Positions 1 to 5,443 of a stretch of DNA of 5,443 nt are shown here, piece by piece. The stretch covers positions 1 through 5,443 of the forward strand of contig JALWSI010000138.1 of NCBI GenBank assembly GCA_027080315.1, given 5' to 3'. The translations under genes and the position numbers were made by a program. The notes under the pieces are model-generated. The model ran no database searches, was not told where the DNA came from, and saw only the letters and a list, made by a program, of their open reading frames with translations. Every line of letters begins with the position of its first letter. Within the stretch, counting starts at the first letter, position 1. The DNA comes from a bacterium. Its GTDB lineage: Bacteria; Thermosulfidibacterota; Thermosulfidibacteria; Thermosulfidibacterales; JALWSI01.

Positions 1-565
1 AGGGGTTATTGTGACCATGAAACCCAGAAACCGGGAGGAGTTGAAGCAATGGGTGCTAAGAGAGATCAAGAAAGCCGGCCTTGAACCTGATCCCGCCTTT
101 GTTGAGTGGCTTGTTGAAGAGTCTGAGGGGAACGTGGGCTTCATTGAGAACGAGATTGCCAAAAGGGCTCTGTACGCAGAAGAGGAGGAAGAGTTCAAAA
201 CCGCAGTTTCTCTCAACAGGTTCAAAGGAGAGATTGGAAGAGGCGATATCAAAGCAATAAAGAGCCTTGAAGAGCTTCTGGCTGCTGGATACTCTCCCTT
301 GTACCTTATGGGAGTGATGACCAATATGGTGAGAAACGCCGTGGCGGTTTACGAAGAGGCCAAGAAAGCGAGAAGTCTGCAGGCAGGCCTGCAGAAGGCA
401 AGGATTTACCCAGGGGAGAGAGAGGCCATAGTCTCGTTATTGAAGAGGCACCCAAAGGGCAGAATCTACAAGCTGTTCTCGGCTCTTCAAGATGCAGATC
501 GTGAGTTGAAGAGCAGCTCCACTCCTCCCCAGGTGGTTCTAAACAGAGTGATTATTAGCCTTTAA
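1..565 (+). CDS. holA: DNA polymerase III delta subunit, C-terminal part (5' end outside window)
   Basis: The delta subunit opens the beta sliding clamp as part of the clamp-loader complex. The reading frame is open from the left edge (GVIVTMKPRNREEL...), so the GTG at 11 is very unlikely to be the true start. About 188 residues are visible, against roughly 330-350 for the family. The visible part matches the end of the ATPase-like region: a Lys/Arg-rich entry, then 'ELKQWVLREIKKAG', then 'GNVGFIENEIAKRALY', which corresponds to the family pattern of an acidic 'E(L/I)xKLxLY' helix. The helical C-terminal collar domain follows, and the protein ends 'VVLNRVIISL', typical of HolA tails. The family call rests on these patterns and on length; no search was run. 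The stop TAA is at 563-565. No convincing terminator follows, so some read-through toward the downstream operon is possible. Confidence 0.8.
   Translation, partial: GVIVTMKPRNREELKQWVLREIKKAGLEPDPAFVEWLVEESEGNVGFIENEIAKRALYAEEEEEFKTAVSLNRFKGEIGRGDIKAIKSLEELLAAGYSPLYLMGVMTNMVRNAVAVYEEAKKARSLQAGLQKARIYPGEREAIVSLLKRHPKGRIYKLFSALQDADRELKSSSTPPQVVLNRVIISL
376..395. repeat. Perfect 9-bp inverted repeat inside holA
   Basis: TCTGCAGGC (376-384) and GCCTGCAGA (387-395) are exact reverse complements separated by AG. In the protein this covers 'SLQAGLQK', whose repeated Leu-Gln partly explains the DNA symmetry. In RNA it could fold into a tight hairpin with eight pairs and a short loop. No U-run follows, so it is not an intrinsic terminator. 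A function is not evident. Confidence 0.6.
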
Positions 566-626: not shown

Positions 627-639
627 GGGAGGCGTTGAT

Positions 640-690
640 AGGCGATGAGGTCCGCCTTGAACCGCCGTGGCAACGGCTGATGACCTCTAA
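640..690 (+). promoter_or_regulatory. Fluoride riboswitch (crcB motif) aptamer
   Basis: This segment reproduces the fluoride aptamer nearly position for position when compared from memory with the crystallised Thermotoga petrophila example. P1 pairs AGGCG (640-644) with CGCCT (653-657) around the loop ATGAGGTC. A second hairpin pairs GCCGT (664-668) with ACGGC (673-677) over loop GGCA. The pseudoknot pairs GAGGTC (647-652) with GACCTC (682-687). The ligand-pocket bases are all present: A645, U646 and G647 after P1, and the CUGAUG segment at 677-682 with U681 and G682. The A680-U688 long-range pair is also available. Known members sense fluoride through Mg ions and turn on fluoride exporters or fluoride-sensitive enzymes. 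Here the downstream gene is a dynamin-like GTPase 28 bases away. No U-tract terminator lies between aptamer and gene, pointing to translational control. Confidence 0.94.
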
Positions 691-710
691 GGATCTGGGA
701 AGAAGGAGGT
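683..710 (+). promoter_or_regulatory. Riboswitch expression platform: SD-masking helix and ribosome binding site
   Basis: AAGGAGGT (703-710) is a near-perfect Shine-Dalgarno sequence seven bases before the ATG at 718. ACCUCU (683-688), the aptamer's 3' pseudoknot strand, can pair with GGAGGU (705-710): five Watson-Crick pairs plus one U-G pair, enclosing a 16-base loop. Because 682-687 also forms the fluoride-stabilised pseudoknot, the two structures exclude each other. Fluoride binding would hold this strand in the aptamer and free the ribosome site, giving an ON switch. The pairing is seen in the sequence; the regulatory outcome is inferred. Confidence 0.72.
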
Positions 711-717
711 ATGAGCC

Positions 718-2568
718 ATGGCGGAGCTCGCACGTTCAACGCTATCCGAAAATCTGGTCCCACCAGCAGGTCTCCCTGAAGGCATGGAAAACGACCTTGA
801 TCTCTCACAAAAATACTCAAAGGCCCGAGACTCAATAAGAGAGGCTATAGAGTTTCTGAGACCCAGGGTATCTCAGGAGAAGCAGGAGCTACTGGATGAG
901 ATCCTGACCAAGATAAGAGAAAACCGCTTCAATCTCGTTGTTTTAGGGCAGTTCAAGAGGGGCAAGACCACCTTCATCAATGCCTTGCTGGGAGAGCCTG
1001 TTCTGCCCAGCGCCATTGTACCCCTCACCTCTATTGTGACCATCTTGGAGTACGGAGATAAAGAGAAGGTTGAGGTCTTCTTTGAGGACGGACGGGTGGA
1101 GGAGATCCCCAAAGAGGAGATACCCAAATTCGTCACCGAAAGGGAGAACCCCAAAAACGTCAAGGGGGTTAAGTACGTTAGGGTTCTTTACCCCTCCGAG
1201 TTCCTCTCTTCCGGGATAATTCTCATTGACACCCCAGGGGTGGGTTCCCTTTACGAGAATAACACAGACGTCACCTATGGCTTTCTGCCCCATGTTGACG
1301 CCGGGATCTTCCTGCTCACAGTGGATCCACCCTTAAGCAAAGAGGAGATCGCCTTTTTGAAAGACATTCTCCCCAATGTGGAAAAGCTCTTCTTCATCCT
1401 CAACAAGATAGACTATGTGGGCAAGAACGACCTTGAAGAGGTGTTGGAGTTCTCAAAAAGCAACCTTGTGGAGGCCTTGGGAGAAGAGAACATTGTGCTG
1501 CTTCCCATCTCCGCCAAGATGGCCCTTGACGGCAGGGTGGCCGGAGACCCAGAGGCGGTGATGGAAAGCGGTATCACCAAGGTAGAAAGCGAACTCAAGG
1601 AGTTCCTCATAAAAGAGAAAGGCAAGGTGATAATCAACTCCTCTGCCAACAAGGTGCTGAACATTCTGGGAGATCTCCTCTTCAGAATAGACCTTGAACG
1701 CAAGATGGCCACCACGCCTCTTGAGACCCTTGAAGAAAAGATCAAGAAATTCAGAGAGATACAAGAGGGCATTCTGCAAGAACGAAAGGACAGCGAGTAC
1801 CTCTTTAAGGGAGAGATAGACTCCCTCATACGTATTGTTGAAGAGGACGTTTACCGATTCAGAGACAAGAAGATCCCCCAGCTCTGTAAGGCCCTGCAGG
1901 AGACCTGTGCCAAGGAAAAACACCGTGGCTCAATAGAGCTCTCTAAGGTAATGGATAAAGCCCTGAAAGAGACCATTGTAAAAGAGTTTGACGCAATGGT
2001 GGAGAAGGAAAACCAGCGAATCAACGAGGAGTACGCCCGCATAGCAAAGAGGTTTGCTGATAGAATAAACGGGATAATCAACAACCTCCTCTCCCTATCT
2101 GCAGAGCTCTTTGAGGTCTCCCTTGAGCAGTTTGAGGTTGAAGAGAGCATAACCGACGAGTCGGGTCTCTACTACGTGTTGGAAGACAGGAAAATGCTCA
2201 TAGACTTTGAGGGTGCCGCCAAGTTTCTCTCCTATGCGGTGCTGCCCCACGCCATAGCCACCAAAAAGATAATGAACGACGTGAACAAGAAGATCCCTGA
2301 AAAACTTGAGATGAACTGCGGCAGGGTTAGATCGGACTTTGTAGAGAGGATCACCAAGAGCGCTATGGATCTGCGCTGGAACATGCAGCAGAAGCTGGAT
2401 CAGACCATCTCGTACGTTGAAGAGGCCATAGACCGGGCAATGGAACTGAAGAAGAAGAGCAAAGAAGAGGCTGAGAAGGCACTAAAGGAGCTCACCTCTC
2501 AAAGAGACCTCTTAAACCATTACAAAGAGACCATTCTCAAAGCCCGGTCAGAGTATGGAGCAGAATAA
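718..2568 (+). CDS. Bacterial dynamin-like GTPase under fluoride riboswitch control
   Basis: This 616-residue protein is a large GTPase of the bacterial dynamin-like family, whose members bind, fuse or remodel membranes. All GTP-binding motifs are present. G1 is G77-QFKR-GKTT (P-loop ending K83-T84). G2 is T104 in 'VPLTS'. G3 is D171-TPG. G4 is N229-KID. G5-like is 'ISAK' at 264-267. The P-loop plus 'NALLGEPVLP...P(L)TS' is characteristic of dynamin-like rather than Era/YihA-type GTPases. An N-terminal helical segment (about 25-70) precedes the GTPase domain, as expected for dynamin architecture. Residues about 300-480 are long charged helices (trunk). A moderately hydrophobic patch at about 497-514 (FLSYAVLPHAIA) is a candidate membrane-contacting tip, and 570-612 is a lysine/glutamate-rich coiled-coil. 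No signal peptide or clear transmembrane helix is seen, so a cytoplasmic, membrane-associated location is likely. The start ATG has an ideal ribosome site seven bases upstream. The stop overlaps the next gene by 14 bases. Membrane activity is inferred, while the GTPase fold is well supported. Confidence 0.88.
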   Translation: MAELARSTLSENLVPPAGLPEGMENDLDLSQKYSKARDSIREAIEFLRPRVSQEKQELLDEILTKIRENRFNLVVLGQFKRGKTTFINALLGEPVLPSAIVPLTSIVTILEYGDKEKVEVFFEDGRVEEIPKEEIPKFVTERENPKNVKGVKYVRVLYPSEFLSSGIILIDTPGVGSLYENNTDVTYGFLPHVDAGIFLLTVDPPLSKEEIAFLKDILPNVEKLFFILNKIDYVGKNDLEEVLEFSKSNLVEALGEENIVLLPISAKMALDGRVAGDPEAVMESGITKVESELKEFLIKEKGKVIINSSANKVLNILGDLLFRIDLERKMATTPLETLEEKIKKFREIQEGILQERKDSEYLFKGEIDSLIRIVEEDVYRFRDKKIPQLCKALQETCAKEKHRGSIELSKVMDKALKETIVKEFDAMVEKENQRINEEYARIAKRFADRINGIINNLLSLSAELFEVSLEQFEVEESITDESGLYYVLEDRKMLIDFEGAAKFLSYAVLPHAIATKKIMNDVNKKIPEKLEMNCGRVRSDFVERITKSAMDLRWNMQQKLDQTISYVEEAIDRAMELKKKSKEEAEKALKELTSQRDLLNHYKETILKARSEYGAE

Positions 2569-3452: not shown

Positions 3453-4055
3453 ATGGAAGGAACTGCAAAGGTTGGAGCCAAGGCACCTGACTTCACCATC
3501 CCCGCCTACTACAAAGGAGACTTCACCGAGGTCACCCTTTCTGACTTAAAGGGGAAGTGGGTGCTGGTCTGCTTCTATCCCGGAGATTTTACCTTTGTCT
3601 GAGCTACCGAGCTGTCGGCGGTCGCCGACAAATACAAAGAGTTTCAGGAGCTTGGTGTAGAGATCATCTCCATCAGCGTTGACAGCAAGTTTGTGCACAA
3701 GGTGTGGGATGAGCAGGAGCTCTCCAAGATGGTTGAGGGAGGCATCCCCTTCTACATGGGCTCAGATCCCGGAGGGAACATAGGTAAGATCTATGGGGTT
3801 TACAACGAGGAGATAGGCGTTGACATCAGAGGCCGTTTCCTCATTGATCCCGATGGCGTGATTCAGGCCATGGAAGTCCTCTCTCCACCTGTTGGGCGAA
3901 GGGTAGAAGAGGCTCTGAGACAGATAAAGGCCTTCCAGCATGTGAGGGCCACAGGAGGAGCAGAGGTGTGCCCCTCTGGTTGGGAACCTGGCAAGACGGT
4001 GCTCAAACCAGGGCCCGATCTCGTGGGCAACGTCTGGAAGGTCTGGAAGCCTTAA
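3453..4055 (+). CDS. Selenocysteine-containing AhpC/Prx1-type peroxiredoxin (in-frame TGA = Sec50)
   Basis: This is a thiol peroxidase of the typical 2-Cys AhpC/Prx1 group, reducing hydrogen peroxide and organic hydroperoxides in the cytoplasm. Read through the TGA at 3600-3602 it gives 200 residues, the usual family length, with no other stop. The N-terminus '[16 protein letters not shown]' and the active-site loop FYPGDFTFV-Sec-ATEL match the family FYPxDFTFVCPTE, so selenocysteine sits exactly at the peroxidatic position (P43, T47, Sec50). R126 aligns with the catalytic arginine, and C173 in 'EVCPSGW' is the C-terminal resolving cysteine, predicted to form a selenylsulfide with the partner subunit. 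The residue after Sec is Ala, not the usual Pro. The ribosome site AAGGAGG (3440-3446) is six bases before the ATG. Ordinary gene finders would miscall a 49-residue ORF plus a 120-residue fragment starting at GTG 3693. SelA, SelB, SelC and SelD must be encoded elsewhere. Selenoperoxiredoxins (PrxU type) are known from anaerobes. Confidence 0.9.
3600..3630 (+). promoter_or_regulatory. UGA recoding site and bacterial SECIS hairpin
   Basis: The UGA is followed by a hairpin in which UGUCGGC (3613-3619) pairs with GCCGACA (3624-3630), seven uninterrupted pairs, over the loop GGUC (3620-3623). Seventeen bases lie between the UGA and the loop, within the range usual for bacterial SECIS elements. The loop starts with G and contains the GU read by SelB; from memory, GGUC is also the apical loop of the E. 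coli fdhF element. The hairpin lies in codons for 'LSAVAD' and would be bound by SelB carrying Sec-tRNA and GTP. Confidence 0.87.
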
Positions 4056-4131: not shown

Positions 4132-5443
4132 TTAGACCTTTTGCTTGTAGAGGTACTTGTTTACTGCGTTGAGATAGGCCCTTGCGCTCGCCTCTATCAC
4201 GTCGGTGCTGCTCCCCCTGCCAATCATAACCGTGCCATTGAATTGTACCTTAACGGTGACCTCACCAAGGGCGTCCTTACCTTTGGTTATAGCCCTGATC
4301 TGATAAGATAGCAGCTTGCCCTGAACCCCTGTTATCCTCTCAATGGCCTTGTAGGTAGCATCCACTGGACCATCTCCAATGGCAGAGTCCTTGAGCACCT
4401 CCTCACCCCTTTTCAATCCCAAGGTGGCTGTGGGAAGCACTTGATTACCGCTGCTCACATGGATGTACTCTATCTCAAAGGCCCTTGGGATAGCCATGAT
4501 CTCTTCCTCAGCCAGAATGATGAGGTCCTCGTCAAACACCTCCTTCTTTCTGTCCGCCACCTTCTTGAACTTCTCAAACACCTTGTTGAGGGTCTCTTCG
4601 TCCAGCTGGAAACCGAGCTCTTCAAGCCTCTCTTTAAGGGCGTGCCTGCCCGAGTGTTTGCCTAATACCAAGCGGTTTACCGGCACACCAACAGATTGCG
4701 GGGTCATAATCTCGTAGGTTAGGGGATTTGAAAGAACCCCGTGCTGATGAATCCCTGCCTCGTGGGCAAAGGCGTTCTTACCCACAATGGCCTTGTTAGG
4801 CTGCACATAAACCCCGGTGATTCGGGAGACCATCTGGCTGGTTCTGTATATCTCTTCGGTTCTTATGCCGGTCTCAAGGCCAAAGAGGTCGCTTCTGGTC
4901 TTAAGGGCCATCACGATCTCTTCCAAAGAGGCGTTGCCCGCCCTCTCCCCAATACCGTTAATGGTGCATTCAACCTGTCGTGCCCCTGCCTCTATGGCTG
5001 CTATGGAGTTGGCCACAGCAAGGCCAAGATCGTTGTGGCAATGCACACTAACAACAGCCTTGTCAATGTTAGGCACCTTGTTGAATAGGTATGTTATTCT
5101 CTCCCTGTATTCAGAAGGCATGGTGTAGCCCACTGTATCTGGTATGTTCACCGTGGTGGCTCCGGCGTTGATCACAGCCTCAATCACCTTGCAGAGAAAA
5201 TCGGGATCGGTCCTCGTTGCGTCCTCAGCCGAGAACTCAACATCGTCCGAGAACCTGCTGGCGAACTTAACAGCGTTCACAGCCGCTTCAAGCACCTCTT
5301 CAGGCTCCATCTGCAGTTTGTACTTCATGTGGATCTCTGAGGTGGCGATAAAGGTGTGGATGCGAGGCTGTTCCGCTGACTTCAAGGCGTCTGCTGCCCT
5401 CTGTATGTCCTTCTCGTTGGCGCGACAGAGCCCTGCAACCACA
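4132..5443 (-). CDS. leuA: 2-isopropylmalate synthase, N-terminus outside window
   Basis: LeuA condenses acetyl-CoA with 2-oxoisovalerate to 2-isopropylmalate, the first committed step of leucine synthesis. About 436 residues are visible and the frame stays open to the right edge, so the GTG at 5442 is not the real start. About 70-75 residues carrying the N-terminal TLRDGEQ region are missing. Visible-fragment landmarks: '[17 protein letters not shown]' (27-43), '[14 protein letters not shown]' (66-79), '[11 protein letters not shown]' (99-109), metal ligands H134 and H136 in '[10 protein letters not shown]', and 'NGIGERAGN' (162-170, N170 a metal ligand). 'GIHQHGVL' and '[10 protein letters not shown]' follow in the linker region. 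The C-terminal leucine-sensing domain starts near 320 and contains '[17 protein letters not shown]' and '[21 protein letters not shown]', so feedback control by leucine is likely. The '[10 protein letters not shown]' and HCH patterns fit true isopropylmalate synthase better than citramalate or homocitrate synthase. It converges with the peroxiredoxin gene and appears intact. Confidence 0.95.

Follow-up and report, generated by a model that had tools for sequence, protein, structure and literature searches.

Fluoride riboswitches recurrently precede one clade of bacterial dynamin-like GTPases

Introduction

The fluoride riboswitches of Bacillus cereus and Thermotoga petrophila precede the exporter gene crcB and switch expression ON through competition for the 3' strand of the aptamer pseudoknot. 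They have been assayed by transcription termination and their linchpin base pair is numbered A40-U48 (PMC11077080). Genes of the known fluoride regulon, coding for CrcB/Fluc, CLC-F, Na+/H+ antiporter, pyrophosphatase, enolase, UspA and formate hydrogen lyase, share this riboswitch and often the same operon. A 2024 review names antiporters, pyrophosphatase and HAD proteins as partners and leaves GTPases unmentioned (PMC11139923), and the targets named by Weinberg 2010 and in the 2020 orphan-riboswitch review are others. A membrane-remodelling GTPase is not among the named targets in the literature searched.

Bacterial dynamin-like proteins (DLPs) such as Nostoc BDLP (2J68), Mycobacterium IniA (6J72), Campylobacter Cj-DLP1/2 (5OWV) and SynDLP combine canonical GTPase motifs with neck and trunk helices. 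Few bacterial dynamins have a known natural trigger. Roles under membrane or drug stress are described for DynA and IniA, and some bacterial DLPs come in pairs (PMC6104087). Here we describe a stretch of 5,443 nucleotides (hereafter the window) in which a fluoride riboswitch precedes a DLP; it makes up all of contig C138 in a genome of 1.84 Mb that is 94% complete. We analyse this pairing and explore how far it extends.

Materials and methods

Riboswitches were identified by cmscan with the Rfam model RF01734 (gathering score 34 bits) and with a model built in this analysis. The single window DLP, used as query against the genome contigs, gave no match; a profile made from an alignment of the DLPs of the window's order succeeded. 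Screening species-level public genomes with the DLP profile yielded 525 relatives, the best 80 of which were analysed; three of these 80 are cut by a contig end, leaving 77 to be counted. Since these 80 are the closest relatives, bias was checked with a control sample of 386 genomes spread over the domain, 377 of them outside the order. In this sample DLPs with a profile score of at least 200 bits were considered family members, 20 of which lie outside the order.

Covariation was determined for nine riboswitches of the order, the three strands being aligned by hand; those of the window and of genome G002 were left out because their hairpins form in another register.

Results

The riboswitch and its operon

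A sequence-only reading of this DNA had placed a fluoride aptamer directly upstream of a dynamin-like gene, and both halves of that claim are confirmed. The RF01734 match covers the full length of the model with 46.7 bits against the required 34 (E = 7.3e-11) and is the sole match over the cut-off in the whole genome; the open reading frame that follows codes for a dynamin-family GTPase (PF00350, E = 6.9e-26). The span given to the unit, 640-2568, was correct except at its start, the 5' flank of the aptamer beginning at 632 (Table 1). The core nucleotides are intact (AUG 645-647, UGAUG 678-682), and sequence, structure, pseudoknot and linchpin are as in the B. cereus and T. petrophila crcB riboswitches. 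The aptamer ends 21 nt before the DLP start codon (ATG 718), which has a Shine-Dalgarno sequence (SD) GGAGGU at 705-710. A consensus promoter scan of positions 480-800 detected no promoter that would place the transcription start upstream or downstream of position 690, and a PrrB_RsmZ match in the window (18 bits against a cut-off of 44) was rejected as chance. The flanks are ordinary genes: the C-terminus of a DNA polymerase III delta-like protein upstream (2-565, +) and 2-isopropylmalate synthase downstream (4132-5442, -).

Table 1. Features of the window and toroid proteins at other loci
Feature	Position	Strand	Basis or remark
Fluoride riboswitch aptamer (RF01734)	632-696	+	covariance-model match, core nucleotides read from sequence
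Aptamer P1	641-644/653-656	+	
Aptamer P3	664-668/673-677	+	
Aptamer pseudoknot	648-652/682-686	+	
Aptamer linchpin pair	A680-U688	+	equivalent of A40-U48, mapping made in this analysis
Expression platform	683-710	+	anti-SD strand 683-688 (ACCUCU) can pair with SD 705-710 (GGAGGU)
Dynamin-like GTPase (DLP), 616 aa	718-2568	+	PF00350, AlphaFold model, BDLP/IniA/mitofusin matches
DLP GTPase motifs (residues)	G1 77-84, G3 171-174, G4 229-232		
Alpha/alpha-toroid protein, 261 aa	2555-3340	+	PF00432 (E 5.5e-10), AlphaFold, RabGGTase-beta fold
Toroid proteins elsewhere	L034:2392-3177, L028:3145-3984, L033:7771-8610, L035:7348-8184		

The DLP contains motifs G1 to G4 (GQFKRGKT, PLTSIVT, DTPG and NKID), which are invariant. 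Its AlphaFold model (pLDDT 82.8) has a GTPase domain and long neck and trunk helices. The closest sequence relatives with a structure are Nostoc BDLP and IniA, and fold matches comprise IniA, BDLP, mitofusin/Fzo1, the Campylobacter DLPs and SynDLP; the match to IniA and BDLP extends over about 500 residues with a loose global fit (rmsd 8-10). Residues 471-493, at the trunk tip, have a pLDDT under 50, and no transmembrane or membrane-insertion segment could be seen in the protein, nor a clear hydrophobic stretch at this poorly modelled tip. Identity with BDLP, IniA, Cj-DLP1/2 and SynDLP is about 17-20%; unlike these, the DLP lies under a fluoride riboswitch and falls into a clade of its own. 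In contrast to the paired DLPs mentioned above it is usually single, a second dynamin being found nearby in three loci of the best 80 of 525 relatives.

The operon consists of the DLP and an alpha/alpha-toroid protein, and the gene behind the riboswitch is, as had been read from the sequence, neither CrcB nor CLC. At the DLP stop and toroid start the two genes overlap by 14 nt, and translation of the toroid is likely coupled to that of the DLP. The toroid model (pLDDT 90.6) shares its fold with RabGGTase beta, the beta subunit of a protein prenyltransferase, at 14% identity (Z 24, rmsd 2.6 over 245 residues). Judged by eye, the Asp-x-Cys and His zinc ligands of prenyltransferases appear absent from the matching places, which would make prenyl transfer doubtful.

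Switching logic

In the minimum-energy fold of the window leader, ACCUCU 683-688 pairs with GGAGGU 705-710. Strand 682-688 also provides the 3' half of the pseudoknot (682-686) and linchpin nucleotide U688, so that pseudoknot and SD hairpin, both requiring the same strand, are mutually exclusive. As the 3' strand of the pseudoknot is able to pair with the SD, fluoride should turn translation ON, a logic that the window would share with the crcB riboswitches, although the platform of its order hides the SD rather than acting by the termination for which those were assayed.

An SD-hiding hairpin formed from the 3' strand of the pseudoknot occurs in all 11 riboswitches of the order. Against simple shuffles its energy z-score ranges from -3.2 to -6.2 in nine of the 11 and is -1.8 in G001, whereas the window hairpin is the weakest (z -0.1), no more stable than shuffles. 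Among the nine aligned riboswitches, the shared strand makes 100% standard pairs with the pseudoknot loop, three of them changed on both sides, and 92.6% with the SD side, with three covarying pairs; shifting the partners by one to three columns leaves only 32-59% and 36-51%, respectively, although placing the strands by hand biases the alignment towards the structure. The riboswitches of the order fit a translational ON switch.

Loci in other phyla mostly have terminator platforms (32 of those classified), which are also ON by design. At some Desulfobacterota-like loci, to judge by the sequences, the shared strand may take part in a three-way antiterminator. The platforms of L069, L071, L074 and L077 resemble a three-part aptamer/antiterminator/terminator and not a simple overlapping terminator.

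Recurrence within the order

A fluoride riboswitch is present in each of the order's nine genomes. It is followed by the DLP, with or without the toroid gene, in the window, G003, G005, G007 and G008, by toroid and then DLP in G002 and G006, and by a toroid without linked DLP in G001 and G004; a second riboswitch of G006 directly precedes the DLP. Outside this order the toroid is hardly found; within it, the toroid adjoins the DLP or comes first behind the riboswitch. It is the first gene in four genomes (G001, G002, G004 and G006) and so counts, beside the DLP, as another uncharacterised gene under fluoride riboswitches, its fold resembling that of RabGGTase beta.

Pyrophosphatase is among the riboswitch-linked genes of the order. 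A second riboswitch of G005 (L036:1414-1477, -) precedes inorganic pyrophosphatase, a known fluoride-sensitive enzyme. G007 has a second DLP-toroid pair (C148, L044), cut by the contig end, which may be foreign given the 6% contamination of that genome.

Recurrence across phyla

A same-strand riboswitch lies upstream of 74 of the 77 untruncated DLPs from the best 80 of 525 relatives, at a distance within 400 nt in 64 cases, 0.5-0.8 kb in nine and 3.2 kb in one. For a subset of 17 loci, Rfam's own model confirms 13 of the 15 riboswitches called by the model built here; the two weakest calls, L115 and L116, score below the Rfam gathering score, and L080 and L117 are negative by both models.

Of the 20 family DLPs in that part of the control sample which lies outside the order (377 genomes), 16 have a riboswitch on the same strand no more than 6 kb upstream, a count that assumes co-transcription where the riboswitch is 1-6 kb upstream, so that the farthest cases may not share a transcript. 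The riboswitch is within 400 nt for ten of the 20, and four have none nearby. By contrast, none of 31 lower-scoring dynamins lies behind such a riboswitch (Fisher p = 7e-10). A separate PF00350 search gave the same picture, with a riboswitch at 7/7 close relatives versus 0/15 distant dynamins. Chance adjacency was rejected on the basis of the 386-genome sample with dynamins of other clades as controls. Seen from the RNA side, 16 of the 91 riboswitches of the sampled genomes outside the order, about one in six, lead to the DLP family.

In the phylogenetic tree the DLP family falls on one side of a branch with support 100/98, opposite 11 other bacterial dynamins. Going by record titles, which for MAGs are a rough guide to phylum, it occurs in at least eight phyla, with Thermodesulfobacteriota, Bacillota, Nitrospirota, Planctomycetota, Myxococcota, Actinomycetota, Atribacterota and Gottesmanbacteria among others. 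That many unrelated phyla share the pairing suggests that fluoride turns on an entire branch of the bacterial dynamins.

Planctomycetota loci with two or three tandem riboswitches were observed (L131 at 1459, 1943 and 3779; L123 at 3375 and 5741; L135 at 3676, 5758 and 7642). L131 and L123 have an extra dynamin-like ORF behind its own riboswitch.

Neighbours and exporters

Genes beside the DLP at the various loci code for Na+/H+ exchangers, UspA, MFS transporters, HEAT-repeat proteins, DUF6062 and a HAD-like hydrolase, none of which is constant across all loci. The Na+/H+ antiporters and UspA, like the pyrophosphatase of the order, belong to the known fluoride regulon. DUF6062 proteins under fluoride riboswitches are found in L101 (1978-2703, Pfam-confirmed), L011 and L027 (by eye); in L011 (genome G020) DUF6062 lies between riboswitch and dynamin.

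No CrcB was found in the 94%-complete genome of the window, and one was found in only one of the nine, incomplete, genomes of the order. The CLC of the window's genome is on contig C36, not under this riboswitch. CLC proteins of the order have motifs GSGGSxGREGP and GYGMP- or GHGVP-like, which, judged by eye, do not look like those of CLC-F.

Discussion

We propose that, without fluoride, pairing of 683-688 (ACCUCU) with the SD (GGAGGU, 705-710) would block ribosomes, and that with fluoride and Mg2+ the pseudoknot and linchpin would hold 682-688, freeing the SD so that the proteins can be made. The riboswitch would then be an ON control of DLP translation and, through coupling, of toroid translation. 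As a separate lineage of bacterial dynamins, the DLP clade would be specialised for the response to fluoride and would use GTP to remodel or repair the inner membrane in fluoride and acid (HF) stress, beside Na+/H+ antiporters, UspA and pyrophosphatase. Taken as a whole this is the explanation we favour, and we hold it to be rather probable. Its parts differ in strength. The riboswitch, its recurrent place before the clade and the mutually exclusive pairings are supported by sequence analysis, from which we infer the actual switching by fluoride. That the riboswitch controls the dynamin-like GTPase, as the sequence-only reading had it, is very probable, its position, the competing SD hairpin in 11/11 riboswitches of the order and the recurrence across phyla all strongly arguing for it. 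The membrane role is a near-even call: the modelled fold is that of membrane-active DLPs and DynA and IniA offer analogies (PMC6104087), while the link to fluoride stress runs through regulation and neighbours only.

The aptamer might instead be degenerate, or its adjacency to the DLP accidental, and the weak leader hairpin of the window could be read that way; with the core intact and the association recurring across phyla, this is almost certainly wrong. That the toroid is the true target and the DLP an operon passenger would explain the riboswitches before a toroid without linked DLP in G001 and G004, but is highly improbable since the riboswitch is followed first by the DLP, both in the window and at most loci, including phyla without toroid, and the SD hairpin of the window covers the DLP start.

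Dosage compensation, in which fluoride traps the GTPase site as GDP with AlFx, BeFx or MgFx and cells make more DLP, deserves more weight. It has already been proposed for enolase and pyrophosphatase, making more of an enzyme that fluoride inhibits is a known strategy (PMC11139923), and structures of Cj-DLP2 and mitofusin with GDP-AlF4 or GDP-BeF3 are available (PMC6104087); the canonical G-motifs of the DLP make such trapping plausible. Yet a switch that is OFF by default is odd for a needed housekeeping GTPase, and this ON logic argues mildly against it, as does a dedicated clade, a single one carrying the riboswitch (0/31 among other dynamins). Essential GTPases with the same chemistry, moreover, are not described as targets, and we consider this account unlikely. 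The DLP could also be a helper that does not repair bilayers but arranges or stabilises parts of the membrane for other members of the regulon, such as Na+/H+ antiporters, or that acts jointly with the toroid. Genes for Na+/H+ exchangers, UspA and MFS transporters do recur beside the DLP and the toroid adjoins it in the window's order; as no neighbour is constant across loci and the toroid is nearly limited to that order, a helper role seems quite unlikely.

Returning to the favoured reading of a fluoride-induced, membrane-remodelling clade, we suggest tentatively that in many phyla such dynamins form an unrecognised, transport-independent arm of fluoride resistance, and that, in lineages where CrcB is undetectable, they are the main product of the sole fluoride riboswitch. 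This points to a non-transport arm of tolerance, possibly membrane upkeep, that would concern anammox planctomycetes, Nitrospirota, sulfate reducers and syntrophs. With the fluoride switch largely specific to one clade, that clade gains a defined inducer and an immediate assay. The literature searched lists exporters, antiporters and metabolic enzymes, yet about one in six sampled riboswitches leads to a DLP. Neither the RNA class nor the protein fold is new; what is new is their dedicated and widespread pairing. The pairing had been taken as not established, and for the literature searched it is indeed undescribed, nothing there joining dynamin, fluoride and riboswitch, but it is widespread in genomes and no one-off. 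An earlier listing is possible: a figure of Baker et al. 2012 may include a COG of dynamin-like GTPases.

Finally, a peroxiredoxin gene downstream of the operon (3453-4055, +) has an in-frame UGA (3600-3602) in place of the peroxidatic cysteine (FTFVU). A hairpin at 3614-3629 resembles a bacterial SECIS (z -2.9) and SelB is present in the genome. The product is probably a selenoprotein, which gene callers would shorten to 3693-4055.
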